From a virus, in the IMG/VR virus record IMGVR_UViG_3300032282_004853, positions 1 to 47,160 of that record: a stretch of DNA of 47,160 bases; one strand, given 5' to 3'. Positions within the stretch are counted from its first letter, which is position 1. The number at the start of each line of letters is the position of its first letter. The notes beneath the pieces were generated by a model that ran no database searches, was not told the DNA's origin, and saw nothing but the letters and a program-made list of their open reading frames with translations. The position numbers and the translations under genes are program-made. Positions 4,986-44,922 of this stretch are shown here, piece after piece.

Positions 4986-4987
4986 AA

Positions 4988-8853: not shown

Positions 8854-9435
8854 GTGCTCAGCGACAGCCATAGAATCTCGGATCTGGAACGGAAGGTGGC
8901 CTCCGTGGCTCAACTCCTCAATGGGTGCACCCCGCAACGGGTCATGGATTACACGGGGTATATTTACTCCGTGCTCGGTGCGAGCGTTGGATATAGGGGT
9001 GTCTTGGCTTCTTCTGCCACCGCCGCACCGTGGGACGTGACTATGAAAGTTGATCCTGACAATCCGGACGGGTATCTGGCGACGGTAAATCCAGGTCTAA
9101 TTGGTGGCATCCTTCCGAGCAACTGGGATGCCGAATTCGAGGTCTCCGGCTCATCGATCCATTATGCCATCGCGGTGATCCAGACGGACGGGACGGCGAT
9201 CAATGGAGTCTCCATCGAGATCAGGACGACCGCCCCTCAGTCCCAGACGCCGGAGCTGTGGGCTACTCCCGCCTCGGTGGAATATCTTTTCGGGCTCATA
9301 AAAGAGGGTTCGGTGAAGCGGGTGATCGGCCCCGGCAATATCACGCTCATGCCGAAAGTCTGGCTCACGGTTGAGAAGGATGCTCCCGTAGGACCCGGTG
9401 AGCTGGCCTACGACCGCTACTACGCCCTGGCATGA
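8854..9435 (+). CDS. Hypothetical protein, first gene of plus-strand cassette (193 aa)
   Basis: I place the start at GTG 8854, preceded by AAGAGGA. The ATG at 8773 would run back through the divergent scaffold start. The N-terminus has a short coiled-coil-like helix (SHRISDLERKVASVAQLLNG). A beta-rich body follows (GASVGYRGVLASSATAAPWD; WDAEFEVSGSSIHYAIAVIQ). No family is recognised. It is the first of three plus-strand genes embedded in an otherwise minus-strand virion module. It overlaps the next gene by ATGA, so the two are co-translated. A trimerising helix plus beta body would suit a small spike or decoration protein; this is inference. Confidence 0.7.
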   Translation: MLSDSHRISDLERKVASVAQLLNGCTPQRVMDYTGYIYSVLGASVGYRGVLASSATAAPWDVTMKVDPDNPDGYLATVNPGLIGGILPSNWDAEFEVSGSSIHYAIAVIQTDGTAINGVSIEIRTTAPQSQTPELWATPASVEYLFGLIKEGSVKRVIGPGNITLMPKVWLTVEKDAPVGPGELAYDRYYALA

Positions 9436-14981: not shown

Positions 14982-15010
14982 TCGTTATAGTGTAAGCGTT
15001 TCGCTGTCAA
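14982..15010 (-). promoter_or_regulatory. Phage promoter element B (portal operon)
   Basis: The minus strand reads TTGACAGCGAAACGC at 15010-14996. The possible -10 is TAACGA at 17-bp spacing, or TATAAC at 15 bp. The TGA stop codon of the 17-kb gene (15009-15007) is part of the TTGACA box. The central triplet is AAA here instead of TTT, which keeps the GCG-N3-CGC symmetry. Confidence 0.65.
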
Positions 15011-27000: not shown

Positions 27001-30000
27001 TCCGATGGCATGGATGCCCTCCTCGCTGAGCATGGACTCAGCCCGCTCTGGGTGATCAATCAGAACCTGGATGTTTTCCGTGGCAGGATCCAAAAGATCT
27101 CCAAGGCTGATACGCAGTTTATTGTCTGCGGTCAGTTCGGCTCCGCCCGAGCGTCGTTGCCCGTCATTGAAGGCGATTCCCTCAAAGGCATCATTCCACC
27201 TTGCGATTGCGGGGGCCAATTTATTGAGTGCTCTGGCGACATTCCTTCGCTGGATGGCGTTGAGGGGCTTTTTGCCAACTTTCACATTGGCTACATCCAT
27301 CTGACTGATCAGATTTTTCAGATTCTGGCCCTTGAGCTGCTCCGCGACATGGATGGGGGCGGTGATTTCATCCTGCTTTTCGGATCCACCCGCCTCATTC
27401 CATGATTTCAGGATGTCGGCCGGAGGTTTCCCATCACGGACATACTGACGGGCAAATGCCATGGAGTTGGCTGGCGTTGCCCCGGCCTCATTGCGAAGCC
27501 TTCTTGAAAGGATAATCGCCTGCTTGGTTTCCTTTGCCGACAAATCCCTGGTATCGGGCATGTCTGGGATGGAGTCGGCAGAAGAGGTTTCGGCATTGCT
27601 GTCCTGCGTCGGCTCTTGGGTTTCCCCTTCGGGCCTGATTCCAAGAATCTTTTGATTCTGCTTCAGGGCATCGGATTGGCGCTTGGCGTTGTTGGCTGCC
27701 GCCTGATCGGCGTATTGCTGGTGATTCTCGGGAGACTCATCAGGGAAGTTTGATTTCCAATAATCAGGACTCTCGTTTTCTGCTTGAAGCTGCTTGGGGA
27801 AAACTCCTCCATCCTTCTCAAAATCACCCGTGATTCTCTGGCGAAGCTCCTCATTGGTGATGTTGTCTGGATATGCCCCCTCTCTCAGGCCGGCGTAATG
27901 TTCGGCAACCGTTGAGTCCACCCCTTGGGCCTGCAGGATCTTGGAAATCATCTTCCCTCTCTTGGAAGACGGGGAAAGCGGGGGTTGGGGCTCAGGGGAG
28001 GGGATCTTGGCGGCGGCACCTCCGCCTTGGCTGCCAGGAGGCGTCAATGGTTCGCTGGGGCCTGTTGTCGCGGCAGGGGGTTCTTCATCATCGCTCCTCT
28101 TTTCGGAAATATCCCCTCCATCTTTGACGCGAACCATTTCTTGCCCGAATAGCAGGCCGTTTTCTTTGGTGAGACTTTCGGGATCCTTGTCGATCTGAAT
28201 GTTTTCAACCAACTGCCCTCGCGGGGTGAGAATTTCCCCATAACGGGTTCCGTCCCGATTCTTTTTGATGGTGATCGTGTAGTTCTCGCCAAAGGCATCA
28301 GGGGAAGTGAAAACATCCCCTTCTTTTGCATTGCTCCAAAGCGTTGATGCCCGCCGCTTCCTTTGCGCCATGGGCGCGTCATCGCTTAGTGGGGCTGGGT
28401 CTCCGGATGCTTCAGAGGAAGTTTCAATCGTTTGGCGATTCTCTCCACCTGGAGCTTGGTTTTCCCTCGCTGGATTTGACGTATCCCCAAGTTGTTGTGA
28501 TGTCGGCGGGTTTTCATTGGATGCTTCTCCAAAAATTCCATCGGCAGCGCTCTTGGCCTCTTTTCCCGTGATCCCGATCAGGTCAGCGGCGTGGGGGGCA
28601 ACTCCGGAGAGCCATTCTTTTGCCGTATCGGTAATGATCGTGTTCCCGTTGTGATCTTCGATAAAAGTCACTCCGGAGCTGGTTTTGGCTTTCCCGAGGG
28701 TCGCCCGCTCCGTCTCGGAGAGATCTTGGAATTTCACCCCTTGGGCTATTTTCACCAAGGCGCCCGCGAGGTCGGCCCTGCTTTCGGCCGGCACATTAAG
28801 CGGGTCGGCCTTGATGGCCGCATTGATCATCCCGATCTGCGCCTCAAGAATTTTCACCTGATCCCCGGGAGCGTTGGTGAGTTGGCTCATCAGCTCCGTG
28901 CGCCGTTTTACGAGATCCTTGGCCGTCGGCTGGGTATGGAGCGATGAAATCTGAGAGTCTGCCTGGGCAAGATCCTCCACTTTTCCGCTCCAGTCCTTGG
29001 GGATGTTGTATTTCTGCTTCAGTCTGGCGAGCTTGGCACCTCCTGCGGCGGCGGAGATCAATCCAAGGATGGCTCCGGAAATAGCCCCCGATTCGCTGGA
29101 TTCAGCGATTCCTGCAAAGAGGTCGCGATTCTCGTCATAGAAACGCTTGGCAATTGTGTTGTTGGCAATGGTTGTGGCGTCGTTAAGTGCGGTGAATGCA
29201 ACGGCTTCGCTGGCGGCTTTGACAAGGCCCTTGAGCACGGCGTTTTTGACCGGCTCGGCAAAGGTATTGAGGTAATGGCTGACCGGGATAACCACACCGG
29301 CCCCGACGACGCCACTCAGGAGGAAGGGAAGGAATGCTTCCTTTTCGGATTTTCCCATCTCGCGAGCCTCGGTGTATACAGAAGCTGCATTTTGGGCTGC
29401 TCCGACGGCTCCCGTGGCAGCTTGAGACAGAAAAGAGGCCACTTCGGCACTCATTCCTGCGGCCTTGGCTGCTTTTCCAACAATCGCTCCAGGGATAAGG
29501 AATCCAGCCAGCCCTCCGGCGTGTGCGGCGATATTGCCTGGGGTCGATTCGGCAAGTCGCGGGTCCATGGACTGCTCCTTGAGCGCATTGACTCCAAGCC
29601 CGATATCCTGCAGCCAATTACCCACGGCGTTGTCGGCATATCCGCCCGCATTGGCAAGAACGCCTGCGGTGGTTGCGAGGCTTCCTACGGTTGATGGAAC
29701 AAGCTCGTAGACAAACTTGGATGCGACATCCCCGATTTTCTCAATCATGGAGGGATCGGATTTCAGGAAGTCCAATGCCCTTGAGCGAAGTTCTTTGAGA
29801 TCCTCAGGATTGGAGGGGTTGAGTTCCGGGATGTATCCCGGAGTTTCAAAGTCCTTTTGCGTGATTTCGGGAGAAACCTTTTTCAGGAAATCGGGATCAT
29901 TTCGCATGATCCACCCCTTGAAGGAGTCGTTGATCAAGGTCTTGTCGATGATCCCTTCCTGAACAATCTGCGCCTGAGAGGCCATGCGCTTTGTCATGGC

Positions 30001-32193
30001 ATCCGCCTGCTCTTGGGTCAGCTTGCCGTCTGCTTGGGCCTTCTTGATCTGATCCTCCCATGACGGCATTCCCTTGGGCCTGAGACCCTCGGGGCGCATG
30101 GAGATGGGATTGATGGCAACGCTGCCATTGTGAAGAACTGCGTATCCGCTGCCGTCCTTGAAGGTCAGCTTCTTGTCGTCATCTTTAAGCTGCGCCTGCC
30201 TTTCCTTGATGGATTCCGCATTCGGGGATGCATCCAGTGCGGCCAACTTGGTTTTGGCCTCTTCCACTGCGGTGTTTTTCTCCTTGGAAGCCGCAATCTG
30301 CATTCCCGGGGATGCCATTGCTTGGAATCTCGCTTGGGCTTCAGTTCCATCTGCGATCTGACGCTCCAGATCTTCCCTCTGACGTGCCTTTTCAGTCAGG
30401 TCAGAGTCCGCCTTTTGCTTTTTGTCGAAATCTTCTTTTTTTGCCGTCTGGATACTTGAGGCAATAGCGTCCCGTTTTGCCTGAAGGTCGGCCTCGAGCA
30501 AGTCGCTGGCATTTTGTCTTTCCGTCGGATCGGTGATGGATTGCAGCTTGTTCCTGCGCTCGTTTGCATCCTGATCGAGCTGATCCAACTGATCTGCCAT
30601 GGGGGCGATTACGGGGTCTTTCCGCATCTGATCCCGCTGTTCCTGAACCTTCTGTTGCTGATTCCTGTTGAAGGCCTCAACGCCGGTCGTTAACTGCTGC
30701 GCCCGGGTATCGCGTTCGGCAATCTTTCGCTGTAGTTCTTGGCCGTCTGCTTGGATGGCTGCCGCTTCCTTGTCCCATTCGGCAATATCTGCGGCCGTTC
30801 CGCCTTTCTGGCGTTTTTCCGTGAGATCATTGATCCGCTGAGTGAGATCGGCATTGGCTGACAGGATGTCGACATTGGCCTGGCCGACCTGCTTGCCGGC
30901 CTCCTTGATGGCATCTTGGGCATCTTCGGGAGGAAGCGAAGCAATTGAATTGCGATACTCCTCTCGCTTGCGCTTGAGGTATCCGGCGGGACCTTCTTTT
31001 TTAAGCCCCTGATGCTTGATCGAAAGATCGAGCATTTCACTCCGCGCATCCTTGATCTGATCATCCGTTGCCAAAAGTCGCTCGGTGTCGGCAAGGCTCT
31101 TCTTGCGTTTTCCCTCGGATACTGCCCAGTCTGCCTGCGCCTTGGCGGTTGCCTCCTGATTGACGACGCCAAACATGTTGGTGACGGCTTTCGGGCGAGG
31201 GGTTGGAATACTAAGGCCCTCCTTTTTTTCTTCCTGCTTGGCTCTGGCAACGGCTGAAAGCCCGCCCGAAGGGATGGTGGCTGCTGGCGTGGTTGGTCCG
31301 CCCTCATCCGGCGAGTCGGAAATCTGGCTATTTTGCGCCGAATCTTGATCCGATGCCGGCAAATCCCTGCGTAGCTGCTGGATCTTGATCCCAAGATCCG
31401 CGTGCTGATTGGAAATCCCGCGCATTTCAAGCTGGTAAAGGTGCTTGGCACTGGCGATGGCAAGGCGATTATCCGAGCTAACCAAGCCCCCCTGTGCGTC
31501 AATTGTCTCCCAGGGAGTCAGCTTGGTTTTGCGATAGAGATTGGGGTCATTCGGATCATCGGGATTTGCTCCGTACTCGGCATCCTCATCGGGGTTCTTG
31601 ATTTTCTTGGAAAGAACGGTGGATGTCGTTCCGTCTGGATTGGTGATGGTCTTCGGGGCCTCGCCTCCCTCGTTGTAGACAACCTGATAAGGGCGTCCCT
31701 GAGCATCATACTGGACGGGGTGCTTGCGCTCTTTGACGGCCTGCTGGCCCGTCACGGGGTCGATCATGGGCGCGGCTACACCCTGCTCATTAAGCTCATA
31801 CTGGCGTCCTGTTTCCTGATTGTCGGCGCTGGCAGCCCGATTGATGGCCTTGCGCTGTGCCGTAAACGCCTCGCGGGCTTTTTGTCTCTCAAGGTTCCTG
31901 TTGTAGGCCTCTAACTGGCTGTTGTAGTGAATGTACTGTCGGACGGTTGCATCATCGTCATCCGGATTACTTGAGTAGTCAGGCTCTACCGGGGGAGTGA
32001 GTCTTTGCGGCGCTTGGATGTCTGGCTGATCCAGAGGCCTTGGCTGTGCGGCCAGATTTCCTGTATTGATTTTTGGAGATGGGCGAGGGGATGGAGAGTC
32101 ATTCCCGGGACTTTGGGATGAATTTTCGGAAGAATAATTGTCTTCCGTGGAACCGGGGGCGCCGTAGTCCTCCTCGTCGTCGTTAAGAGCCAT
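15007..32193 (-). CDS. Giant polyvalent virion protein (5728 aa) with embedded sigma-70 domain
   Basis: The largest gene in the window. Residues 1-860 are low-complexity and coiled-coil. About 870-1060 is Gly/Ala-rich and membrane-like (GGLAGFLIPGAIVGKAAKAA; LLSGVVGAGVVIPVSHYL). Near 1722 there is a degenerate zincin-like motif, SEEGIHAI. About 2070-2230 resembles the ddrB-ParB domain. About 2615-2725 resembles PBECR nucleases. The 2780-3230 segment carries the phage motif FIEEIQSDRHQ. LPD1 plus HEWFH lies at about 3650-3770, RadC/JAB at about 4205-4332 and a sigma-70 unit at about 4498-4685. The C-terminus (GILSGPLTHVANITGN; FFPFVRTPYNIF) is typical of phage polyvalent proteins. Such proteins are thought to be delivered with phage DNA. 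Seven SRRA/TRRA linkers separate the later domains and may be cleavage sites. Confidence 0.9.
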   Translation of the reverse strand: MALNDDEEDYGAPGSTEDNYSSENSSQSPGNDSPSPRPSPKINTGNLAAQPRPLDQPDIQAPQRLTPPVEPDYSSNPDDDDATVRQYIHYNSQLEAYNRNLERQKAREAFTAQRKAINRAASADNQETGRQYELNEQGVAAPMIDPVTGQQAVKERKHPVQYDAQGRPYQVVYNEGGEAPKTITNPDGTTSTVLSKKIKNPDEDAEYGANPDDPNDPNLYRKTKLTPWETIDAQGGLVSSDNRLAIASAKHLYQLEMRGISNQHADLGIKIQQLRRDLPASDQDSAQNSQISDSPDEGGPTTPAATIPSGGLSAVARAKQEEKKEGLSIPTPRPKAVTNMFGVVNQEATAKAQADWAVSEGKRKKSLADTERLLATDDQIKDARSEMLDLSIKHQGLKKEGPAGYLKRKREEYRNSIASLPPEDAQDAIKEAGKQVGQANVDILSANADLTQRINDLTEKRQKGGTAADIAEWDKEAAAIQADGQELQRKIAERDTRAQQLTTGVEAFNRNQQQKVQEQRDQMRKDPVIAPMADQLDQLDQDANERRNKLQSITDPTERQNASDLLEADLQAKRDAIASSIQTAKKEDFDKKQKADSDLTEKARQREDLERQIADGTEAQARFQAMASPGMQIAASKEKNTAVEEAKTKLAALDASPNAESIKERQAQLKDDDKKLTFKDGSGYAVLHNGSVAINPISMRPEGLRPKGMPSWEDQIKKAQADGKLTQEQADAMTKRMASQAQIVQEGIIDKTLINDSFKGWIMRNDPDFLKKVSPEITQKDFETPGYIPELNPSNPEDLKELRSRALDFLKSDPSMIEKIGDVASKFVYELVPSTVGSLATTAGVLANAGGYADNAVGNWLQDIGLGVNALKEQSMDPRLAESTPGNIAAHAGGLAGFLIPGAIVGKAAKAAGMSAEVASFLSQAATGAVGAAQNAASVYTEAREMGKSEKEAFLPFLLSGVVGAGVVIPVSHYLNTFAEPVKNAVLKGLVKAASEAVAFTALNDATTIANNTIAKRFYDENRDLFAGIAESSESGAISGAILGLISAAAGGAKLARLKQKYNIPKDWSGKVEDLAQADSQISSLHTQPTAKDLVKRRTELMSQLTNAPGDQVKILEAQIGMINAAIKADPLNVPAESRADLAGALVKIAQGVKFQDLSETERATLGKAKTSSGVTFIEDHNGNTIITDTAKEWLSGVAPHAADLIGITGKEAKSAADGIFGEASNENPPTSQQLGDTSNPARENQAPGGENRQTIETSSEASGDPAPLSDDAPMAQRKRRASTLWSNAKEGDVFTSPDAFGENYTITIKKNRDGTRYGEILTPRGQLVENIQIDKDPESLTKENGLLFGQEMVRVKDGGDISEKRSDDEEPPAATTGPSEPLTPPGSQGGGAAAKIPSPEPQPPLSPSSKRGKMISKILQAQGVDSTVAEHYAGLREGAYPDNITNEELRQRITGDFEKDGGVFPKQLQAENESPDYWKSNFPDESPENHQQYADQAAANNAKRQSDALKQNQKILGIRPEGETQEPTQDSNAETSSADSIPDMPDTRDLSAKETKQAIILSRRLRNEAGATPANSMAFARQYVRDGKPPADILKSWNEAGGSEKQDEITAPIHVAEQLKGQNLKNLISQMDVANVKVGKKPLNAIQRRNVARALNKLAPAIARWNDAFEGIAFNDGQRRSGGAELTADNKLRISLGDLLDPATENIQVLIDHPERAESMLSEEGIHAIGRKILADRSMAEGKTRDRILQSFADDPSRQLNIPETPDTNDHADSSAADIFNSLPKELRDHVDGIYSEKPGVTPSWKLGHEFFRMLAQHDLAIDKDGNAVAGGKIITEQTLGQHIVRTIREHLSKLFSYFSKLSENLKAGGAKDSDIAQVEEVRSQIKEAIKSLQTQVDENLRRSYEEGYGIRANRNRTDSKTGNAGGAISGRIDGEGRVGATEASWNPAMQKADSGNLEANAGSGAGIAEAKGLGGAPSEVPSGDGKGQPAATAQSPELIAELERLRSEKAEREAAQERAQERRNQAVQKRAENTADKEQLVAKVPEEAKGQAQELLQKVQMGKTTYVLGANRERISAVMIAVPPGEVETSHAGEDFHKNPNYGGENTRSYHNDETEQNKVRQMALPGALDEDSIVTDSKSASDGAPQVVMTIFNDANGKLQVKLQTAGGNGREQGINLSSPEDQERLSQAWKNNASHYGLHDMPDGWRGYRFLGVYDLRDEAQNRSYLQLVDKLNPNQGVVQDTASRADIDAALKIPAERLVNLPLTMSAEQARTELLGLVKDSEKLGLDRNLMAGLVKNPTQAQFYMQRLLLAAAFRSKALGEFFTSSQLSSGHATVTGLIKASTSAALHLREAGHGNIAEAIGRMLENVVEYVKNGDRIGQAIRRAAEQTEMGADGDTINALAAALDKKVEYHAQNKKGIKPVNAEDTVAGFEDLMRDITTSIKKHSDEPDMFGGARTMGDTLKAGIESHFRKNTPQDPRDVQSRRAGDPVKRMRQLIRKRQEEGLNRYETDELTNLEKAQGQHFMGFFDETKAPFSLESQEEAKPVAPTSPANQLSLLSRRAEKSPSKQAAEELRARLRPWMASENEKNEAIQSPGGEEHRKALQSTIDALTNGSEGSFTRPDIGTVYIPMGSDGTREFDYENGSGINGIITKRMIAGEDPVAAIVGSINAAALGKMNRIYGPKGHERASIDYNGYRAILSLTHHGNEKAWVLTGYEIKEGGAKGVSRNPDRYAPADSYIRRQVVASSIENLRREMGSVNSGDENTLQSRRAATDDQGFYSRLEDVLASKIQGKSATPEQIKALINKPDSGIKAEEIKWSGISDIIDTLASGNGGKVPKQALMDYLQGAGKVQFKEVSTQAGDPTKQFADYGQPIPAKYSQYTIPGGENYREVVLTMPGSSDLSLKRGMEARQMEDGSWNIWDRNGWVYREGSGTKEELLGKASQDEMLTTPSQPVYRSSHFAETPNYVAHMRLNERTDSSGTPGLFIEEIQSDRHQQGREKGYVGDSDFSESRKKAEELLKEIQPRIAELNQKYTNREATPEEQAERTVLLAKREEIQKSANLNWLGMENAIPDAPFRKDWPLQMFKRALRDAVSSGKGWIGWTSGSTQAERYKLSTKVDALRYAKRDDGTYLIKYIGKGARDEWKTLGASIPESELADNVGKEVAQKIIDGEGGKDSFSGATDLRGTNLDVGGEGMKGFYDEILPKEIGKYVKKWGAKVEQSAVSNPDEAIKGLSVSGDGKEFWLSKGHFGERVAGPFPDYISADNARDGMARGQTPVWKINITPELQQAVEGGQSLFSRRATKDDSQLDLFSEAKPEVEKYSKALDSEGITDPHAKQEAAIQDLGLTANQALELFPPEEMPFNLEGQVIRKQEPTTESKPLPEGPIEAPAAAGDSEVPTTNPSQIGTKLVDENQERLDALPEAAVAQLAIEAGQRPLTATKDSILANTQPELLSKALDSIKAPPAKGGITDFGEKIGGARKDMAIKTGSSVSRPVDERPAWERRYQIAKVERSMREGENGRYVIYDLRQESRWGHRQIGNSFATEEEAKKAIPLIAVSRNHNVYETRGEDGKGTGTFSIWRNVTDRKRVQVVKESFPSRDDAMRYMAEHAAQILETKTGWREELIAKPENAVRTGAPRREGPATPEMFQKSFGFRGVEFGNWMRQGNDDRERQEVLNHAYDGLHDLAEVLNVPPQALSLNGELALAFGARGQGLVGAKAHYEADYAVINLTKMKGAGSLAHEWFHALDHYMGRLDGKAKREMTVNPDGTKIFTGVNSADKTFVSHGFGVNSNVREELRKAFSSLMQTIDKKAVEYKEDTQQAEKFVKSTRDQLSEKLQQIRNGLTQELTWAKRNNKPASEAQLARFDALADKLLDGDVKTEFRYDKDAKVRPRSFTFPGQRWSNDTLDAISDLYKEIRGRSGFNAQQNGIGNDLAGYLKRYDQRINILNQANAGESKTKYTPTGYKMEATKMDQGTASDYWSLPHELAARAFSAYVEDRIAAHGDKSDFLSFGADNTLPGYRMWNVKPFPEGAEREAINKAFDDFFSTIKSEPTEKGVSLQSRRAIPDEDSVKNYLTERGVDRTRVVEVSHEITRQLQEISRLQEEGSAYGDLFSWNKGETLSLDRGDMGNPAETEEPGKTGGGSDEIERLPGEKNTDILRLPQDPEKAFGRGNVVSSLVHSLISREIPSFNIDGKTLNGPADFASLMMPLRSPYFESLKVAFLDKDNNVIHSQILTAGTLDSSYANRRDILISLKDARQKNPDVVSALIAHNHPSGNPEPSGADKKLTKIIREVMASAGISLKDHVITNGQTYHSFEKNETLPLPKEDIAAWENISRDKLQKITSDDLGTYVSQLRQGVDSDTAHIIYLTTKNGITAVERVPKGTDWANLKKALMDGIGREAPFGIALDISGLDSKDARYIKDSATREIANAGVYLLDVATSDIPSHSSRGIISTSPTPHDSVYEGDALNSRRADDENQLPLDFDKAREDGLKSPAQRLRESQDLINKIASQFSEMPNYNADDARQKVRIAIANAAKNFDPTKGVPFEAYAGVAAKNALRDLYRVESRYAERYQTTMDEPIGSDSQGNEVTRKDQLADANTPLPPDQAALNESSRLLESAILELPERMSDVLTGMLRGENGQEIANRMGITRQAVDNIQKAAMRRLQGKLGERGISSTNELLTRRALREDAGDDDIDSIMRGLNQEIDHDVIGGLRDQAISEEGSGKPKQIGRPDLAYGARNPETRAVDQYYTDTTTKETRAQWEDAAQGMLRKDADRVRADIQGKGLAGGSLTAEETVAAGIIADKLSKKMIQEPTDENIKAFNVFQYAYRELRSTAGRVLAAGYDPFMTPAQRHRDFLIDMMYKPSKKAERAIKAERDPVKQSALIDEETRRVMEKLKAAGITPEDILAERVTMRLADKKIISELRSLLSRAATSAQDLRRTAFDMILKNKSLDAISKTTGLKVDEIRKIKDDSIAKLRRDHFAKFQAGAKADKTSLVTGKKVSDTAAEEEFQKWLSNLGFVSNEKQGKPKFNVEDPVHVMRLAKAIKEAKGEAGFFDKAYEAWIAGILSGPLTHVANITGNLGSAALNLTLQRGMEAFVNLAIGDKKSASFGEFQWFAKGLMPGLARGYALAAKAWSAEHDFFENSVLGTPLELAQFDKVANTRQAISGAKGKFIRIPLRSLAFADSMFKGALGQMEAGAMAYRIAKAEGLSGKALSDRIETLSKTRGEVVAENLSRVAVTKESVRWFAERLAGRDESLDPDELIEDRGSEAWQMAREQAAYEAAKASGWTEEAWQRAVDSAREMTFQQDLKRGDDGGNMIEDMAAKLQDARDSNKLLGVFFPFVRTPYNIFRIGIRKSPLGAINLAAQAAKGLYSMKNGKAYLEGHPEAVRDLAEQAIAWGVGALLWGAAQGDEDDDDKQLLITGSHPWNKESAGIRGLNDRAFGGEYVIRIGGRNGVTIPFGRIEPIATVLGTTIDMIRAIKRNGTTSENADAFIGYILAQANGKTFLNGASTISDVMQGKSGRIEAIKKSVLQAIVPNIIRSPLRSLDDYVRDSKHASPLYTMLPAQSMAEEQINPYGEPIKKTGNPITRLFFSTPIASDETLRASDKLLLNWNRANPTEAWAPQAPLATFKDSKGKNVEMTAEETKKFRIAAGRLASVKLRGIVNARNAANPTMDDVKKVKNAFESATHEAKQRIFSPSYLAKRKQLFPDHN
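17224..17376 (-). other. Second HTH-like segment in the giant protein (residues ~4940-4990)
   Basis: The segment FDMILKNKSLDAISKTTGLK continues into VDEIRKIKDDSIAKLRR. It has the helix-turn-helix rhythm and the basic recognition-helix end seen in sigma region 4 and related activators. It lies about 250 residues after the sigma-70 unit, in the C-terminal segment. It could be a second DNA-binding element or a diverged duplicate. The evidence is pattern only. Confidence 0.4.
18139..18702 (-). other. Sigma-70 family domain within the giant protein (residues ~4498-4685)
   Basis: Region 2 is recognised in IASQFSEMPNYNADDARQKV followed by AAKNFDPTKGVPFEAYAG (FDPTKG at residue 4548) and AAKNALRDLYR. 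This matches the core-binding and -10 reading helix of sigma factors, compare the FDPxRGxxFxTYA signature. Region 4 begins LPERMSDVLTGMLRGENGQE (residue 4633) and continues IANRMGITRQAVDNIQKAAM, then RRLQGKLG, a classic -35-binding helix-turn-helix. The unit is bounded by NSRRA at 4480 and LTRRA at 4692. Region 3 is reduced to a linker of about 50 residues, as in ECF-like or minimal sigma factors. Confidence 0.85.
19198..19581 (-). other. RadC/JAB metalloprotease-like domain within the giant protein
   Basis: Residues ~4205-4332 contain the JAB/RadC zinc motif HNHPSGNPEPSGADKKLT, with HNHPSG at 4280-4285. Before it come the usual strand FLDKDNNVIHSQILTAGTLD and the helix containing IAHNHP; after it comes MASAGISLKDHVITNG. 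The H-x-H-P-S-G and downstream D are those of RadC-type JAB domains, which are known components of phage and plasmid polyvalent proteins. It lies between linkers at 4070 and 4480. Confidence 0.85.
20884..21246 (-). other. LPD1 plus HExxH zincin-like domain within the giant protein
   Basis: Residues ~3650-3770 include FGFRGVEFGNWMRQ (starting near 3660), the hallmark of the large polyvalent protein-associated domain LPD1. About 75 residues later comes AHEWFHALDHYMG, whose HEWFH (3749-3753) is a zinc-metallopeptidase HExxH motif. Upstream is DFGEKIGGARKDMA, also typical of these proteins. It is a candidate for self-processing of the polyprotein, which is untested. Confidence 0.75.
24019..24351 (-). 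other. PBECR-type nuclease-like domain within the giant protein
   Basis: Residues ~2615-2725 have the order seen in phage Barnase-EndoU-ColicinE5/D-RelE-like (PBECR) domains. A strand GTVYIPMG is followed by a GINGIITKRM helix, then a segment ending in ERASIDYNGYRAILSLTHHG and KAWVLTGYEIKE. It lies between SRRA linkers at 2564 and 2774. Catalytic residues cannot be fixed by eye. Confidence 0.55.
25504..25986 (-). other. ddrB-ParB-like domain within the giant protein
   Basis: Residues ~2070-2230 contain VMIAVPPGEVETSHAGEDFH followed by KNPNYGGENTRSYHND and, further on, ALDEDSIVTDSKSASDGAPQ. This spacing (ETSH, NPxY, then SxSADGAP) corresponds to the ParB-superfamily domain named after P1 DdrB and common in polyvalent proteins. 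It may act on DNA during entry. The assignment is by motif memory. Confidence 0.6.
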
Positions 32194-33920: not shown

Positions 33921-35795
33921 TCACCACTTCATTGCCAGTCCATCGGTATGCTCCGATAGCTTCTCCAGGGCAGCAATCTCGGGAGGAACCACCCTTGGCA
34001 ATTGTGCCAGCGCGTAGGTCGTCGCGCTCCCTATGTTGTAGACGCCGATGCACCCGCTCATCACGTCGTCGTCATGGCCGCTGCCGGCCTCCATGCGCCC
34101 TTTCTTGTCCACAAAGGATGCCAGCTCGCTGTGATAATTCGGGCAGCATATCTCCACTCTCTTATTCCGGATCATCTCATGGAAATGCCAGATGATCGTT
34201 GATCGTATTCCTCCGTATTCGGCTCGATCTGTCGTTCTCCAGCCATCCCATGCCCGCTCAATACCGCTGTGGGGATCACGCTCCTTGCGCTGCCAGATAG
34301 GAGGGCAAGGCTTGTCCGTCATGGCCCGAAGCGCCGTGATGAAAGCCATGCCGGAATTGTTCATCTCGGGGATGATCATGCAATTCCCGTAGTAATGCGA
34401 AAGCGCCCGGGCCAACCGTGCAAACGGTATCATCGGCATCCGGTTCCCATACCGGATCCGAGCCGCCAGCTTGATTGGCCACAAGACCTGATTGTGATCC
34501 AGGTACTCATCGCGCCAGACAAGGGCGGAATGCCTGTCGGGATCCTCTCCCTTGGTCTGATCCTCACCCTCGGCCAAGTCGACACTCATCAGGTAGCGGC
34601 AACCAACCTTGGGAATTTCCCATCGGTGAACCGTCGCCGCATCATGTCCCGTAGGCACCCAGATTGTCCGCTCCTTGCTGTCGTCGACATTCCCCGTATC
34701 CACGGGTTTCCTGCATAAAAGCTGGATGTGAGTCAGCGCATCATCGTCAAAGACCTGCCGGCCGCTGGAGGTAAAGCAACTATGGGGATCATCGGGATGC
34801 TCCTCCTGAAAGATGCGTACGCTGGCTCGGCACTTCGTCTTGATCGTGACCCTTCGCCAAGCAAGCTGCTCCCAGACATCGCAGTTCTCCACCTCATCCC
34901 CGAGTCGCGGGCCCTTGGGCCCCTCGCTCATGTACAGCTCCATGAGCTTCTTCTCCCCCGCATACCAGCTCTCGGCGTCCAAGGTGCGCTCGATCTCCTG
35001 TTTCTGCTCGGGGTTTAGCCTGATGTGCGAATCCTCGAACTCGTACCAAGCCGCAAAGATCCGAACGAAATACGATTCGGAGAGCCCGCTGGCATCAGGC
35101 GGCTGGTCAGGGCAAAGCGATTCCCACTTCTTCCAGTAAAGCTTTCCGCCAGGGCATTCATCAATCCTAGGCCAGCGCCCGCCCTTCCATGTGTTGTAGA
35201 ACGGACCCTCGGCACCGAAGGGTGTTGACTCCAGGAGAACCACATTGAATCCCGTATCCGGAATGGCGTTGAGCGCTGCATCCATGGTCTCCTCGGGATT
35301 TTCCCAGTGGGCGGCCTCCGTTCCGTGAATGAATTGCGGCGTCAATCCGCGAACCGTTGCCTTTCCTCGAGCCGTCGCCTGCCGAAGTACGCTGCCGTGC
35401 CCCCACTTCATTTCCTCTGTCGTCGAAGCATAGGCACTGCCCCATTGCCCCCTGTATCCGTCCGTCTCGGCGTAGTTCTGCATCATGCGGAACACGATGT
35501 CGCTGGTGTCCAACTTGTCCCCGATGATGACCCCTTCATGCCGGAAATTCATGAGCTGGTGATAATGCGCCCCTCCGACAATCGTGGACGCCCCCCTCTT
35601 TCTTGGTTTCACCAGGATCCCCCGCAATGGTTTTCCGGCCAAGAAACGCGAAACATACAGGGCATTGAATCGCCGCTGCAGGATATTCATCACCGGCTTG
35701 ACGTTCTTCCCTTTGACATCCCGGATCTTCCCGAATGTCTCAAGCCATATCCCCGGATTGCTCCGGATTAACTGCTCTGGCGTGATGGCAAGCAT
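33921..35795 (-). CDS. terL: Terminase large subunit
   Basis: 624-residue ATP-driven DNA packaging motor with nuclease. The ATPase part has a variant Walker A, KPRKRGAST, at about 63-71. A later IHGTEAAHWENPEETMDAAL stretch is consistent with Walker B/motif III, ending NVVLLESTPFGAEGPFYNTW. The C-terminal RNase H-like nuclease carries SVDLAEGEDQTKGEDPDRHS near residue 405, with its metal-binding aspartate. It docks on the portal and cuts concatemers. ATG 35795 overlaps the 3' end of the upstream gene by 28 bp. No small terminase was confidently identified nearby. Confidence 0.88.
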   Translation of the reverse strand: MLAITPEQLIRSNPGIWLETFGKIRDVKGKNVKPVMNILQRRFNALYVSRFLAGKPLRGILVKPRKRGASTIVGGAHYHQLMNFRHEGVIIGDKLDTSDIVFRMMQNYAETDGYRGQWGSAYASTTEEMKWGHGSVLRQATARGKATVRGLTPQFIHGTEAAHWENPEETMDAALNAIPDTGFNVVLLESTPFGAEGPFYNTWKGGRWPRIDECPGGKLYWKKWESLCPDQPPDASGLSESYFVRIFAAWYEFEDSHIRLNPEQKQEIERTLDAESWYAGEKKLMELYMSEGPKGPRLGDEVENCDVWEQLAWRRVTIKTKCRASVRIFQEEHPDDPHSCFTSSGRQVFDDDALTHIQLLCRKPVDTGNVDDSKERTIWVPTGHDAATVHRWEIPKVGCRYLMSVDLAEGEDQTKGEDPDRHSALVWRDEYLDHNQVLWPIKLAARIRYGNRMPMIPFARLARALSHYYGNCMIIPEMNNSGMAFITALRAMTDKPCPPIWQRKERDPHSGIERAWDGWRTTDRAEYGGIRSTIIWHFHEMIRNKRVEICCPNYHSELASFVDKKGRMEAGSGHDDDVMSGCIGVYNIGSATTYALAQLPRVVPPEIAALEKLSEHTDGLAMKW

Positions 35796-36108: not shown

Positions 36109-36717
36109 TTAGTTGGTGAATTTTTTCCAGTCAAAGACCGCTCCCCAGTTGCCCTCCATCATGTGGGCAAATCCAGGCTGGGTATCAGGGTCAAAGCACG
36201 CCTGAAGCAAGCGCCGGTAATACTCCTGCGGGTAGGCGTGGACGACTTCGCGCCTGACATAGAACTGAGCGCCGACGCTGAAAGGGATCACGTCCCCGAT
36301 CTCTTCCTTGCCTATCACCTCGCATCCCTTCCGAAGGATTGCCTTGGCCTGATCAAAGTGGGGCTTGTGCATCGGACCCATCGGCGGGTTTGCCCCGAGA
36401 TAGCAGATGGGGTGGGGGAAGCTTTCATTGAGAAGCATCTTCACCACTGCCGGCGCTTCGTGATCAAATGGGAAGCCCTGAAGGAAAAGCGTCACGTCGG
36501 CCAGCTCGTCGTATCGCTCGGCCAGATGGTGGAGGTACTGGCCGGCCTCGCGGGCCACGTTGGGCAGAATGACGGCTGCCCCGGGAAGGTCAGTCCTTCC
36601 TTCTTTGGTGCAATAGACAAAGCGCCTCCAGGATTGTGGAAGCCAGGACATCCAGCGGAGGTCTTCCGCGTACGAGGCTATAACGACATCGGTAGACAGG
36701 GATTCACTTGGGGACAT
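36109..36717 (-). CDS. DUF3431-like protein, possibly glycosyltransferase-related (202 aa)
   Basis: The protein begins MSPSESLSTDVVIASYAEDL, followed by a SWLPQSWRRFVYCTKEG strand-helix. It then shows NVAREAGQYLHHLAERYDEL and VTLFLQGFPFDHE. The order 'V-ASY-EDL ... N-xRExGxYLxH ... LFLQGxxxDH' matches DUF3431, a family with a glycosyltransferase-like fold and uncharacterised chemistry. The C-terminus contains GAQFYVRREVVHAYPQEYYR. It is the first gene behind promoter element D, ahead of terL, and starts almost at the predicted transcription start. The substrate is unknown. Together with two other sugar-transfer-like genes it suggests virion or host-surface glycan modification. Confidence 0.7.
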   Translation of the reverse strand: MSPSESLSTDVVIASYAEDLRWMSWLPQSWRRFVYCTKEGRTDLPGAAVILPNVAREAGQYLHHLAERYDELADVTLFLQGFPFDHEAPAVVKMLLNESFPHPICYLGANPPMGPMHKPHFDQAKAILRKGCEVIGKEEIGDVIPFSVGAQFYVRREVVHAYPQEYYRRLLQACFDPDTQPGFAHMMEGNWGAVFDWKKFTN

Positions 36718-36801: not shown

Positions 36802-36876
36802 CGCAGGGTGGAGAAGTGGTATCTCGTCGCGCTCATAACGCGAAGACCGTGGGTTCAATCCCCACCCCTGCCACCA
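36802..36876 (+). tRNA. tRNA with CAU anticodon (Met, or Ile2 if modified)
   Basis: The sequence folds into a full cloverleaf. The D stem is GAGA/TCTC. The anticodon stem is TCGCG/CGCGA with loop CTCATAA, giving anticodon CAT. The T stem is GTGGG/CCCAC with loop TTCAATC. The acceptor is CGCAGGG against CCCTGCC, followed by A and an encoded CCA. Position 1 is C opposite C, an unpaired end also characteristic of initiator tRNAs, but the anticodon stem lacks the three G:C pairs of an initiator. It may be elongator Met or a lysidine-modified Ile tRNA. The rest of the gap 36877-37030 holds no gene; a small hairpin GGACG/CGTCC is the only structure noticed. Confidence 0.9.
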
Positions 36877-37635: not shown

Positions 37636-38229
37636 TTAAAGTACCTTCGCCCCGTGCAGCTCCATGTCAGAAATGGCGCTGGCTCCTGAGGCTCGGATGT
37701 AATGCTCGGCGGTCTTGATGGATGACCAGCCAAAGTGTGCTTGCAGGCCGGTAATAGAGAATCCCGCCGAAGCCATGAGAGTTGCTCCTGTTGCCCGGAG
37801 GCCGTGAGGGGTGACGGGGTGGGTGATGCCGGCCCTGGAGGCCATTCCCTTCACGCGATTCCAGACGGCAATGCGTGATAGCCCGACTCCATCCTCCATG
37901 CAGAAGAAGGCCCGGAGGACATCGGCCACCATGTTGACGTTCTTAAACGGCACGATGCGAGGCTTCCGATTCTTGGTTAGGGTTCCGGGGATGCGGATCG
38001 TCCTGGTCGAGAGGTCTACCCAGTCGGAGGAGCAAGCGCCGATCTCGGCAGCACGAAGGCCTATGAGTCCAAGGCAGAGGATGGCCTTGTCCTTGGCATC
38101 CTTGCCGGCCTTGAGCATGGACTCAAATTCCTGACGGGTGAGGATGGCATCAAGCGCCTTGGTTCTGGAAAGCGGAGGGCTTATCAGAGAAGAAACAGAG
38201 TCTGACATGAGGGATCTGAGGTTTTTCAT
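37636..38229 (-). CDS. Minimal tyrosine recombinase (catalytic domain only, 197 aa)
   Basis: All six active-site positions are visible: R59 in GLIGLRAAEIG, K86 in LTKNRKPRIVPF, H142 and R145 in TPHGLRATGATLMASAG, H165 (with W168) in LQAHFGW, and the nucleophile Y177 in IKTAEHYIRAS. It should cut and rejoin DNA through a 3'-phosphotyrosine. Typical phage integrases and Xer proteins are about 300 residues or longer. Here the N-terminal core-binding domain is missing and only about 30 residues precede the catalytic fold. It may be a degenerate integrase or a deliberately minimal recombinase. No attachment core is identified; the palindrome region at 39.2-39.4 kb is a candidate substrate. The start at ATG 38229 could alternatively be ATG 38208. 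Confidence 0.85.
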   Translation of the reverse strand: MKNLRSLMSDSVSSLISPPLSRTKALDAILTRQEFESMLKAGKDAKDKAILCLGLIGLRAAEIGACSSDWVDLSTRTIRIPGTLTKNRKPRIVPFKNVNMVADVLRAFFCMEDGVGLSRIAVWNRVKGMASRAGITHPVTPHGLRATGATLMASAGFSITGLQAHFGWSSIKTAEHYIRASGASAISDMELHGAKVL

Positions 38230-38635: not shown

Positions 38636-39163
38636 TCATCCATCCGCCTCTGTAGGCACCTCGTCATTATTAACAGTTTCAGGTATTGTGTTAATGATTT
38701 CCCCGTCTGCCTCTAGGGTCAATCCAAGTCCAGATAGAGCGGCCAAGGCTCGAGAAGCTTCAGGCGACGACTGGATGGCCCTGACAACCTCATCAGCGCT
38801 GTGGAAGTCGCTGGCGATCGTCACGGATCGCTTCACCGGCGTTCCCTCGTCGTAGGCGAGGCGGAGCGTGGCAGCTGCCAGCCTGGTCTTGTGGTCCGGG
38901 ACCTCAACCAAGTCTTTCTTTTCTTTAGAGTAAATCCGCATGGTGGCGTTGGCAGCCTCACGGATCACACGGGCGTTTTCCTCGCGATCCTCCTGCGTGA
39001 TGAAGTCGGCCAGTCGTGCGGATGCTCGAACCACCTTTCGGACGGCAGGTTCCTCCTTGATGACCTTCTGAAGCTTTTTTTCCGCGTGCGCGACGGCCCC
39101 TTGGTCCATTAATTGGCCCCCCTCGATTTCTTCCGTCTTCATAATGTCTCGGAGATTTTTCAT
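38636..39163 (-). CDS. Hypothetical DNA-associated protein (175 aa)
   Basis: The N-terminus is helical and charged (MDQGAVAHAEKKLQKVIKEE), followed by VVRASARLADFITQEDREEN. The middle, DHKTRLAAATLRLAYDEGTP, then VKRSV, resembles the helix found in some phage terminase small subunits and ParB-like helpers. The C-terminus is acidic. No firm family is recognised. A small-terminase role is possible because none was found beside terL, but the distance from terL argues against it. The gene follows the palindrome/repeat region, which would serve as its promoter-operator or as an adjacent replication origin. Its first residues MKNLRDIM echo MKNLRSLM of the recombinase. Confidence 0.65.
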   Translation of the reverse strand: MKNLRDIMKTEEIEGGQLMDQGAVAHAEKKLQKVIKEEPAVRKVVRASARLADFITQEDREENARVIREAANATMRIYSKEKKDLVEVPDHKTRLAAATLRLAYDEGTPVKRSVTIASDFHSADEVVRAIQSSPEASRALAALSGLGLTLEADGEIINTIPETVNNDEVPTEADG

Positions 39164-39202
39164 ATTGGTTAGTGAGTTGGTCTTTATTTTTTCAATTACT
39201 CT

Positions 39203-39356
39203 CTCTCATGGCCCCTCGGAGTTGGATGGTACGCGGTGGCGAGTTCTACTCGTACTCTCATGGGGGGTAGTATACGTAGTATACCCCCATGAGAGTAGTA
39301 CGCCGCTACCACTCCTACGGCCTTGGTAGTATCATGGATATAGAGCCGTGAGAGTG
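39203..39356. repeat. Inverted and direct repeat cluster (iteron-like region)
   Basis: A 14-bp perfect inverted repeat, TACTCTCATGGGGG at 39253-39266 and CCCCCATGAGAGTA at 39284-39297, surrounds two tandem copies of GTAGTATAC (39267-39284). Further CATGAGAG-type units occur at 39203-39211 (inverted) and 39346-39356 (CCGTGAGAGTG). Additional GTAGTA units occur at about 39295 and 39326. The cluster fills the gap between two minus-strand genes. It could be an iteron origin, a multi-site operator, or arm-type sites for the nearby tyrosine recombinase. Confidence 0.85.
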
Positions 39357-39361
39357 ATTTC

Positions 39362-39397
39362 ATATTAGAAATATTAAGTATTTTTATTTCTGAATAT
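39362..39397. repeat. AT-rich inverted repeat beside the iteron-like cluster
   Basis: Arms ATATTAGAAATA (39362-39373) and TATTTCTGAATAT (39385-39397) pair with one bulged G in an almost G/C-free stretch. This is conspicuous in an otherwise G/C-rich genome. Next to the repeats it could be a DNA-unwinding element, or simply a terminator-like end for the glycosyltransferase gene that stops at 39405. Confidence 0.7.
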
Positions 39398-39404
39398 ATT
39401 GTAA

Positions 39405-40181
39405 TTATCCCAAAACCCGCTTTTTGAATGCCTCGTACTCGTTGATGGGTTCGGTTGCTGCCCTCTGCCAGATAGTCTCATTGCGCTCCAAATTGGCTGC
39501 CTCAACGCGGAGATTGTGCCAGACATTGGACTGCCTGCTGTGCCGGACTGTAGGGCCTCGGAGATTGAAGCATTTGCCGTCTGTGTAGGCTTTGCGTTGC
39601 CATAGGAATCCTTGCCAGATGTCATCAAAACGCTCCACGTCGATGAACTGACACCAAGGCCATTCCTCTACCCTGAAGGCGAGATTCATTCCGCATAGTG
39701 GGAAATAACGGCCATGAATGACCTTCTGGGAAAAGATCATGGGGTGGAGTTGCCCCCGGACCAGCTGTGCCGGAGCGTCGTAATCGCCGACGTGTTCCCA
39801 GAATCCCATGGAGGCGGCGACTTCCATAACGCAAGTGTGCTGGAAATAGGGTGTCCCTCTGGATGGTGGATCGGTGACGGCCTCGAAAAGCGGAAGGCTT
39901 TGGGGCTCGAGTGCTGCCTCATGCTCCTCTGCAAATTCCCTGAGCGTTTCGTCAAAGCATGGGAAACAATCGTCATCGAGGATGATGATGATCTCGGCAC
40001 CCTTTTTCATGGCTGCCCTGATGCCGGCGTTTTTGGTCTTGGCGCACCCCTGCTTGGTCTTGTCCTGCTGTAGGTGCAGAAAGTCTGGGGGCTGCTTGGG
40101 ATCAATTCCCCACGCTTTCAGGAAAAGGGAAAGCTGATCGGGGTTGTGCCAAGGGGTGACAATGATGGTCTTCGGGTTCAT
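39405..40181 (-). CDS. GT75-like glycosyltransferase / reversibly glycosylated polypeptide family (258 aa)
   Basis: A GT-A-type enzyme. The opening strand MNPKTIIVTPWHNPDQL is followed by CAKTKNAGIRAAMKKGAEII and a triple-Asp metal/nucleotide-sugar site, ILDDDCFP (D69-D71). Later motifs are the ones that point to GT75 (UDP-arabinopyranose mutase/RGP-like) proteins: PLCGMNLAFR near residue 162, then FDDIWQGFLWQRKAY, and a histidine-containing RHSRQSNVWHNLRVEA close to the C-terminus. It may transfer or interconvert a sugar for phage glycan or DNA-base modification; the substrate is unknown. It starts in an ATGA overlap with the preceding gene. Confidence 0.7.
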   Translation of the reverse strand: MNPKTIIVTPWHNPDQLSLFLKAWGIDPKQPPDFLHLQQDKTKQGCAKTKNAGIRAAMKKGAEIIIILDDDCFPCFDETLREFAEEHEAALEPQSLPLFEAVTDPPSRGTPYFQHTCVMEVAASMGFWEHVGDYDAPAQLVRGQLHPMIFSQKVIHGRYFPLCGMNLAFRVEEWPWCQFIDVERFDDIWQGFLWQRKAYTDGKCFNLRGPTVRHSRQSNVWHNLRVEAANLERNETIWQRAATEPINEYEAFKKRVLG

Positions 40182-43124: not shown

Positions 43125-43339
43125 ACTTTCTGCTTAGTTTTTTTCTTACTTTTTGCGTGTTCTCTCCTGACTTTCTTCAGGAGACGCAAATCCCATATGG
43201 CCAACTTTCCCCAATATTTGGTTCTCTCCTGTGCGTCTTGAAACTTCTCCGGAGACAGCCACCCCTCGGCGCCCTTGATGTAGCCCCAGAATTGTTTCGT
43301 GCGGCCTGCATTCCAGTCTCCGCGGCGGTGCTTTTTCAT
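43121..43339 (-). CDS. Small basic protein (72 aa)
   Basis: A strongly basic product (MKKHRRGDWNAGRTKQFWGY; end AKSKKKTKQKV) with several Trp residues, consistent with nucleic-acid binding. It directly follows the helicase gene with an ATGA overlap, so an accessory role in replication is possible. No family is recognised. Confidence 0.6.
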   Translation of the reverse strand: MKKHRRGDWNAGRTKQFWGYIKGAEGWLSPEKFQDAQERTKYWGKLAIWDLRLLKKVRREHAKSKKKTKQKV

Positions 43340-44922
43340 TTTGAGGCGTTGTTGACGTGGCAGAATCGGCCCTTCTCTGCTCGCACGATGAAGGGGGATT
43401 GCTTGGTCTCTTTCCAGAGTCGCCAGAATGTCGAAGGGGCGATGCCAAGCTGCTCTTTCAGGTAGTTGAGTAGCTCGCTGGGCTTCCTAGCTGATCCAAG
43501 TTCATCAAGCGCCATGATGACATCATCGACCTTGTACTGTTGCTGGAACTTACCGTCCTTGTCTGACTTGGGGCCTTTCGGCTGCTTGAGCTCCTTGGGA
43601 TCCAAGGCTTCATCACGCTGGAAGAGCGGCCATTCCCATTTCACGACAAAAGGCTCTTGAGGGGGGAAATTGCGAAGGGTGGCGTCGATGGTGAAATGCT
43701 CCTCCAAGGCGTGAGGGGTCATGGTCAGAATCGCATCTGGATCTCGGGCAAAGACTCCGGATCCCCCGATTCGGTCCATGCTATCCTTGGCTGCTTGGTT
43801 GCCCTTGGAATAGTGAGCGCCAAAGGCGATGGCGGCCCCCGTCTTGACGGCAATAGCCTCCAGCTCGTTGAGCATGGATGCGACATCCCCGGCCTTATTC
43901 TCGTCTCGGTTTCCTAGGGCCTTGTAGATTGGATCAAAGATGATCAGGACGTAGTTTTCCTCAAGGAGGCGCTTGATGATGTCATCAGCCATCTTTTCGA
44001 TGCCGTCGACAAGCCCCCGGAGAGTCCAGCACATGAACATGCCCGGAGATGGAGTTGCTCCCTTTTTCTTGCAAATGTCTTCAAATCGTTTTGCGAAGAA
44101 CGGTTTTTGAATCTCGAAATTGATGTAGCAAACCTTTCCCTGAATGGTTTGGCATCCCCACCATTTCGTTCCGGTGGCGACCGAAATTCCTAGATCCATG
44201 AGGGAGAATGTCTTTCTGCCCTTGGATGTCCCTCCGATGATGAGCTTGGATCCCCGGTGAAGGATTCCCTCCACCAGCTCGGTGGGTGGTTTTGGAAGGC
44301 TATCTCCGATGAGTGATGACATGTCATCCAAAGGAGGAAGCGCTCCGGCTTTCGATCCCGCTTGGATGGTCTTGAGCTGCTTTGTTACCGAGTCCAGAAG
44401 GCCGGCAAGATCGGCCTTGGGTGCGCTTGCCTCGTCTTTAATCAGCGATGAAATCTCTAGCAAACGTCGCGCCGCATATTTTTCTTTTAGGATGTCGAGG
44501 TAGTACTCGATATTACTGGCTGTCGGAACAAAGGTCTGAAGCTCTGCAAGGGCTCCAGCTCCTCCGGCATTGTCCAGGCATTTCCTTTCCAGTAGCTCGG
44601 TGGTGAGCGTCACGAGATCAACCGGCTTGTTGTGATTCCACAAGCGGAAGAGCGTCGAGAAGATCAGTGCATGGGATGGGTGGACGAAGTGCGGAACGTC
44701 AATCACCGATGCCGCAAGCGCAAGCGAGTACTTGGGATTGATGAGGATTGATGAGAGAACCGCCTTTTCAGCGTCCAGGCTTTGCGGAATCGTGTCATCG
44801 TTGCGCTGAGTGCCGCGCAACGGCGGGCGCCTGAAATCAGCGGGTTCTTTCCGTAGTTCTACAGGAGGCTCATCTTCCTGTGGCATCGGTTCGATGCCCA
44901 TTGCTGAACGAAGTCCTCTCAT
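43336..44922 (-). CDS. DnaB-N / RepA-like AAA helicase fusion (528 aa)
   Basis: Residues ~45-160 form a DnaB N-terminal domain (SLDAEKAVLSSILINPKYSL; VIDVPHFVHPSHALIFSTLF; GGAGALAELQTFVPTASNIE). The ATPase that follows is not DnaB-like but resembles RepA/AAA_25 proteins. It has a Walker A variant GGTSKGRKTF near 227-236, a Walker B IIFDPIYKALG near 328, then GAHYSKGNQAAKDSMDRIGG and SGVFARDPDAIL. A C-terminal winged-helix-like tail ends the protein. It is probably the replicative helicase or loader of the phage. It overlaps its neighbours as ATGA on both sides. Confidence 0.8.
   Translation of the reverse strand: MRGLRSAMGIEPMPQEDEPPVELRKEPADFRRPPLRGTQRNDDTIPQSLDAEKAVLSSILINPKYSLALAASVIDVPHFVHPSHALIFSTLFRLWNHNKPVDLVTLTTELLERKCLDNAGGAGALAELQTFVPTASNIEYYLDILKEKYAARRLLEISSLIKDEASAPKADLAGLLDSVTKQLKTIQAGSKAGALPPLDDMSSLIGDSLPKPPTELVEGILHRGSKLIIGGTSKGRKTFSLMDLGISVATGTKWWGCQTIQGKVCYINFEIQKPFFAKRFEDICKKKGATPSPGMFMCWTLRGLVDGIEKMADDIIKRLLEENYVLIIFDPIYKALGNRDENKAGDVASMLNELEAIAVKTGAAIAFGAHYSKGNQAAKDSMDRIGGSGVFARDPDAILTMTPHALEEHFTIDATLRNFPPQEPFVVKWEWPLFQRDEALDPKELKQPKGPKSDKDGKFQQQYKVDDVIMALDELGSARKPSELLNYLKEQLGIAPSTFWRLWKETKQSPFIVRAEKGRFCHVNNASK

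Follow-up and report, generated by a model that had tools for sequence, protein, structure and literature searches.

Gene neighbourhood and the repeat site

We analysed a 47160-base phage record without a terminal repeat, hereafter the window. A 241-bp gap (39164-39404) separates the gene of a 175-aa protein, probably a terminase small subunit (38636-39163, minus strand), from a glycosyltransferase-like (RGP-like) gene (39405-40181, minus; PF03214, E 9.2e-11), and this gap holds a repeat site that an initial annotation had put forward as a candidate replication origin or recombination site. The 175-aa gene, with its start at 39163, points away from the site, and the gene of a catalytic-domain-only tyrosine recombinase (37636-38229, minus; PF00589, E 1.3e-19) begins 0.97 kb away, so that the left-hand gene starting from the site and the recombinase at about 1 kb had both been described correctly. 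Also on the minus strand are a DUF3431 gene (36109-36717) and the terminase large subunit (TerL) gene (33921-35795), and a DnaB-type helicase whose protein starts MRGLRSAM is encoded at 43336-44922. The assignment of the site to the early module was inexact; the site marks the boundary of the replication genes and the packaging genes.

Other features of the window were recorded in passing. The DUF3431 and RGP-like glycosyltransferase genes flank the recombinase and the element, and one or both have relatives in L003, L004 and L006 (L numbers denote related contigs). A tRNA-Met(CAT) gene lies at 36802-36876 on the plus strand, opposite to the phage genes and about 0.8 kb from the recombinase gene; a scan of 16 related loci found none. 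A single open frame of 5728 codons spans 15007-32193 (minus), and other phages of the group hold relatives of it with 30-73% identity in the matched parts. Two adjoining Ser-rich low-complexity open frames occupy 4446-5611 (minus), one with Asn, Glu and Arg in addition and the other with Gly. The record start falls inside a GGGGATGAA tandem repeat (1-60).

The 14-bp perfect inverted repeat was present as annotated, with 100% complementary arms at 39253-39266 and 39284-39297 set 17 nt apart, and with the tandem GTAGTATAC pair between them (copies at 39267 and 39276). An AT-rich stretch was likewise found in the gap of about 240 bp. Extra copies had been claimed on both sides, which held in part: GTAGTA occurs at 39295 and 39326, both to the right and none to the left, and further CTCTCATGG copies do exist, at 39203 (plus), 39255 (plus) and 39287 (minus), with a one-base variant at 39346 (minus). 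A 14-bp perfect repeat with a spacer of at most 40 occurred once in the window, compared with 2 of 100 first-order Markov simulated windows. This repeat is the core of a larger element before the 175-aa gene.

As RNA, the stretch 39197-39360 was predicted to fold at -77.5 kcal/mol on the plus strand and -67.0 kcal/mol on the minus strand (z -6.0 and -5.4). On neither strand did any of 200 dinucleotide shuffles reach such stability, and the element ranked first among all 160-nt stretches of the window after correction for GC. Read on the minus strand, in the sense of the 175-aa gene, the element begins with an AT-rich lead-in (39357-39416; 83% A+T in 60 nt versus 45% for the record) and the first, forward repeat unit, ACTCTCACGG (39346-39355). 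A flanking helix (P3/P4), whose 5′ strand (39298-39325) pairs with 39203-39252 and outdoes about 99% of shuffles in doing so (p 0.011), encloses the central hairpin (P5, 39253-39297), which has 14-bp perfect arms and a tandem GTATACTAC at its tip and was kept in nine lineages with altered letters. The 5′ arm of this hairpin carries the unit ACTCTCATGG (39287-39296, minus) and the 3′ arm carries it inverted (39254-39263, plus). The 3′ strand of the flanking helix (39203-39252, minus) also contains a small hairpin (P6, 39240-39252, CGAGTAGAACTCG), and an inverted unit CTCTCATGG (39203-39211, plus) lies at the 3′ end of the element. A short open frame of 55 codons (MKSLSRLYIHD...; 39196-39363, minus) crosses the element, and its role as a leader peptide is doubtful.

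The element and its fold in related phages

When searched with the 175-aa protein and its alignments, IMG/VR gave 15 records with a relative, 14 of which show upstream DNA since L004 starts inside the 175-aa gene. Thirteen of the 14 have an element of the same build immediately ahead of the 175-aa gene. The remaining record, L044, holds the most distant 175-aa relative and showed neither the element nor a strong fold in the upstream stretch inspected. The element is identical in L005 and L006, and likewise in L012, L013 and L014. We analysed 11 non-identical elements, the window included, which represent nine lineages when L018/L019 and L041/L042 are counted once each; the L018 element lacks its 5′ end at the contig start. 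A terminase search of genome contigs turned up one close relative, on the Spartobacteria MAG contig L039, and this is the only hint at a host.

The repeat unit is a 10-mer of the form (A/G)(C/G)T-NNNN-(C/T)GG whose core is common within a lineage. The core is mostly CTCA in the window, L009 and L012, ATCA in L003 and L006, CCAC (with the variant CCAG and overlapping GGAG matches) in L016, L019, L041 and L042, and GCAT or GCAG in L024; CTCA and ATCA copies are both present in L006 and in L009. The general pattern also catches unrelated sites, and single copies deviate from it. Counted with the lineage's own 9-mer at up to two mismatches, complete elements carried 5-11 copies compared with shuffle means of 0.4-1.2, and the 5′-cut L018 element carried 2 compared with 0.5. 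Exact units were nearly confined to the element in the loci examined; the window has two more single CTCTCATGG copies, at 3908 and 37773. The leading direct copies are spaced by 11 and 14 in L003 and L006, by 10 and 14 in L012 and by 25 in L009. The 60 nt before the first unit contain 53-85% A+T versus 41-48% for the sequence examined, the value being higher in 10 of 10 elements (L018 excluded). An ATG lies 7-39 nt ahead of the first unit in nine of ten elements, and the frames and their products are not conserved.

The tip of the hairpin is unlike even between the near relatives L041 and L042. Exact matches to a 22-nt hairpin tip were found only in the two records bearing the L006 element, and a phage database search gave one weak match, within the AT-rich part. 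No description of this element was recognised in the open-access literature, as judged on titles, the starts of abstracts and some passages.

The fold was kept while its letters changed. Across the relatives and the window, the central hairpin measures 38-47 nt and its arms contain units. In 10 of 10 elements all unpaired bases of this hairpin lie on the 3′ arm and none on the 5′ arm, in the strand sense of the 175-aa gene. The flanking helix has the same layout in all ten elements tested. Its letters vary by lineage, and its pairing beat 95% of shuffles in nine of ten elements (p 0.059 in L024), with the reservation that related elements are not independent. Among the five alignable sequences of the CTCCAC group, 5 of 34 predicted pairs had changed at both partners and none at just one; 10 of 170 cells were broken, spread over six pairs. 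A small side hairpin after the central one is clear in the window and L009, and weak or absent in others.

The element was the most stable GC-corrected 160-nt stretch in nine of the ten element-bearing sequences scanned and ranked fifth in L019. Sense-strand folds gave z-scores of -3.9 to -8.4, and 0 of 100 shuffles was as good for any of the 11 elements. Both strands fold; the antisense strand was lower in energy in 11 of 11, whereas z-scores favoured the sense strand in 10 of 11, indicating that composition explains the energy difference. As pointers to the strand of a possible RNA, the mismatches in a strand-symmetric fold of ten elements (without L018) were too few and too biased by base composition: five A-C, one G-T, three C-T and three others. 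The Rfam 15 covariance models gave no match up to E 1 in four loci and just a tRNA in the window, and a known RNA family was rejected on this basis. No intrinsic terminator, in the sense of a GC-rich hairpin followed by a T run, was found at the element.

The 175-aa protein and the neighbouring recombinases

The 175-aa protein had no Pfam match, and its best PHROG match (E 0.015) was not convincing. In the related contig L036, the gene immediately ahead of TerL encodes a 160-aa HTH-bearing, TerS-like protein, and the profile of the 175-aa protein matched its last third (E 4.6e-5; hhalign E 1.2e-4, probability 54.5); this L036 protein has an HTH_23 match and a sub-threshold Sf6_terminase match. 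Structure models of the 175-aa protein were poor (mean pLDDT 62 and 61). Foldseek of these models against the PDB gave nothing below E 0.5, and viral fold matches gave none below E 0.001, several of the latter being named terminase small subunit. A search of solved structures with the profile returned two fimbrial chains only, which we read as chance, and a solved-structure search with TerL returned no match. TerL lies 0.8-2.8 kb beyond the 175-aa gene wherever both were seen. Taken together, the L036 match, the weak fold matches and the place before TerL make a terminase small subunit (TerS) the likeliest identity of the 175-aa protein. An N-terminal peptide resembling MKNLRxIM is common to the 175-aa protein and the tyrosine recombinase in the window, L003, L006 and L009; it is possibly a common targeting or partner-binding tag (compare MRGLRSAM in the helicase).

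Between the 175-aa gene and TerL, the window, L003, L004, L006, L009 and L024 carry the catalytic-domain-only tyrosine recombinase, and L012, L016, L018, L019 and L041 carry a serine resolvase at that position. The element occurs with both types and so is not tied to a single recombinase as its site. A recombinase about 1 kb away and inverted repeats with a short spacer would suit an attP or another site of the adjacent tyrosine recombinase, but the element also lies beside the serine resolvases, its hairpin tip differs between L041 and L042, and L006 has a full-length 395-aa integrase-like protein of its own. This separate protein lies 8 kb away, is a tblastn match of the small recombinase and adjoins a stretch that resembles, by eye, the 3′ part of a tRNA-Gly gene, for which ARAGORN reports no complete tRNA; this stretch is the more likely attachment site. 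We rejected an integrase attachment site on the recombinase swap and the L006 integrase, and consider a role as the site of the adjacent tyrosine recombinase highly improbable. The recombination half of the earlier proposal is thus disfavoured, while the origin half keeps the repeats and the AT-rich flank in its favour.

Further observations concern the same loci. The serine resolvases at the swap locus carry an HTH. In L009, the tyrosine enzyme has an orphan HTH-like protein (9159-9347) for a neighbour, which matches the resolvase in the latter's C-terminal part (44% over 41 aa, E 5e-9 in a single comparison). A gene next to the tyrosine recombinase of L003 (3480-3800) weakly resembles RpoA-CTD (E 0.087), and the large terminase gene of L012 (8069-11116) has an apparent in-frame intein-like insert, seen by eye.

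Possible readings: packaging-initiation site, leader RNA or origin

We tentatively favour a packaging-initiation (pac-like) site of this phage group as the reading of the element. Its place, its direct repeats and the way the unit core changes throughout a lineage suggest recognition by a protein that varies from phage to phage; TerS is the likeliest reader, which points to a pac-like site. In 13 of 14 records with upstream DNA the element occupies the position of a headful-phage pac, at the small terminase gene or immediately ahead of it, on the premise, itself no more than probable, that the 175-aa protein is the TerS; and the 5-11 units of each complete element could serve as terminase-binding sites. 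The element is also independent of the recombinase type, which is in favour of this reading, as is the shape retained while the letters change. The 175-aa protein, acting as TerS, would bind the 10-mer units, the direct copies first, together with the inverted copies in the hairpin arms. Bound TerS would position the large subunit, and the first concatemer cut would be made at or near the dyad, with the hairpin perhaps used as extruded or single-stranded DNA.

Some results count against a pac-like site. No such element was seen upstream in L044, and the 175-aa protein is poorly modelled, without a fold match below E 0.5 in the PDB or below E 0.001 among viral proteins. Passages on the SF6 DNA-binding domain, from an SPP1-type TerS, describe little specificity for the repeats (PMC4737164); a specificity this low would not explain the concerted change of the units. 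A double-stranded TerS site has no use for long paired flanks, for a bulge confined to one side or for compensatory changes, all of which suit a single-stranded fold better. The kept single-strand fold fits a hairpin used as DNA in packaging, or an RNA leader. It is conceivable, if improbable, that these TerS/TerL phages use a packaging signal read as a folded single strand, either an extruded DNA hairpin or a packaging RNA, with a recognition core rewritten in each lineage; such rewriting of the 10-mer core might perhaps be an escape from competing terminases or satellites. The ends of the window and of 10 records of at least 17 kb (eight bearing the element) never fell at the element and showed no terminal repeat, several lying near the helicase or a tail-end gene; two short contigs do begin there or close by, L018 within the element and L004 within the adjoining 175-aa gene. 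As weak evidence, contig ends away from the element argue against fixed ends there, and they say little on headful packaging.

A rather unlikely alternative to the pac-like site is that the packaging operon has a structured RNA leader, which would be co-transcribed with the 175-aa gene, fold into a bulged rod and control late gene expression. The strong sense-strand z-scores of all 11 elements, the lineage-specific letters of the flanking helix, the five compensatory double changes in the CTCCAC group, the one-sided unpaired bases on the sense 3′ arm and the ATG ahead of the first unit in nine of ten elements all agree with it. However, both strands fold, no G-U intermediates occur among the varying pairs of the CTCCAC group, sense-strand G-U pairs are few (22 of 592 over 11 elements), the element has neither a terminator-like site nor an Rfam match, and a leader leaves the direct repeats spaced by 10-11 and 14 unexplained. 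The repeats would permit alternative pairings, in which an inverted unit joins a forward unit on either its upstream or its downstream side and which the short leader frame might steer; we hold this form of the leader to be rather unlikely too. In a phage replication origin, also unlikely in our assessment, an initiator would bind the units as iterons next to an AT-rich unwinding stretch, and the hairpin would serve priming. Direct repeats of iteron type and the AT-rich 60 nt before the units (10 of 10 elements) are indeed present, and in those relatives that show both, a DnaB-type helicase gene lies 0.3-4 kb upstream; in the window the distance is about 4 kb. Against an origin, no initiator gene was recognised beside the site among 10 proteins scanned, and a location before terminase genes is less usual. 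The GC-skew check suggested for an origin revealed the same sign on both sides of the site, which is weak evidence since the genes are co-oriented. A chance or decaying repeat without function is hardly credible: the element keeps its place in 13 of 14 records with upstream DNA and its arms stay paired through letter changes. Altogether, the evidence favours a packaging-initiation site or a structured leader at least as well as an origin.

We compared the element with known phage systems. The packaging RNA of phi29 is of similar length and keeps a junction-type fold while its letters change, and phi29 packages without a TerS/TerL pair. Unlike it, the present element lies in a group with a probable TerS/TerL pair and has no Rfam match, and nothing here points to a separate RNA. 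In the SPP1 pac, a precedent for the pac-like reading, as passages of one paper describe it, three sets of direct repeats span promoters and the start of the small terminase gene (PMC4737164). The pacL-pacC-pacR arrangement is alike in having repeats before or at the start of this gene, where SPP1 has late promoters (PMC4737164, PMC6316719). It differs in that the SPP1 repeats are direct and these passages mention no long bulged hairpin, whereas here the unit is also inverted and drifts in concert. In T7, a DNA hairpin is described in part of another source as arising during infection at the region processed for packaging (PMC4281155), which resembles the hairpin here; the T7 hairpin, however, is part of terminal-repeat duplication, and the records here bear no terminal repeats. 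SPP1 oriL and oriR, in the relevant passages, share with the element direct repeats adjoining an AT-rich stretch (PMC6316719), but the element has no recognised initiator, carries a long hairpin and stands before terminase genes.

With these results, the idea of an att site is largely ruled out. It is poorly understood how a small terminase recognises its own genome, and few phages have a known pac site. The role of TerS is called elusive in a passage of one review (PMC10893049). A group-wide element that combines a drifting unit with a kept shape, before a divergent TerS-like protein, offers natural pairs for testing which protein reads which letters, such as the window and L003, whose TerL proteins are 93% alike and whose unit cores are different.
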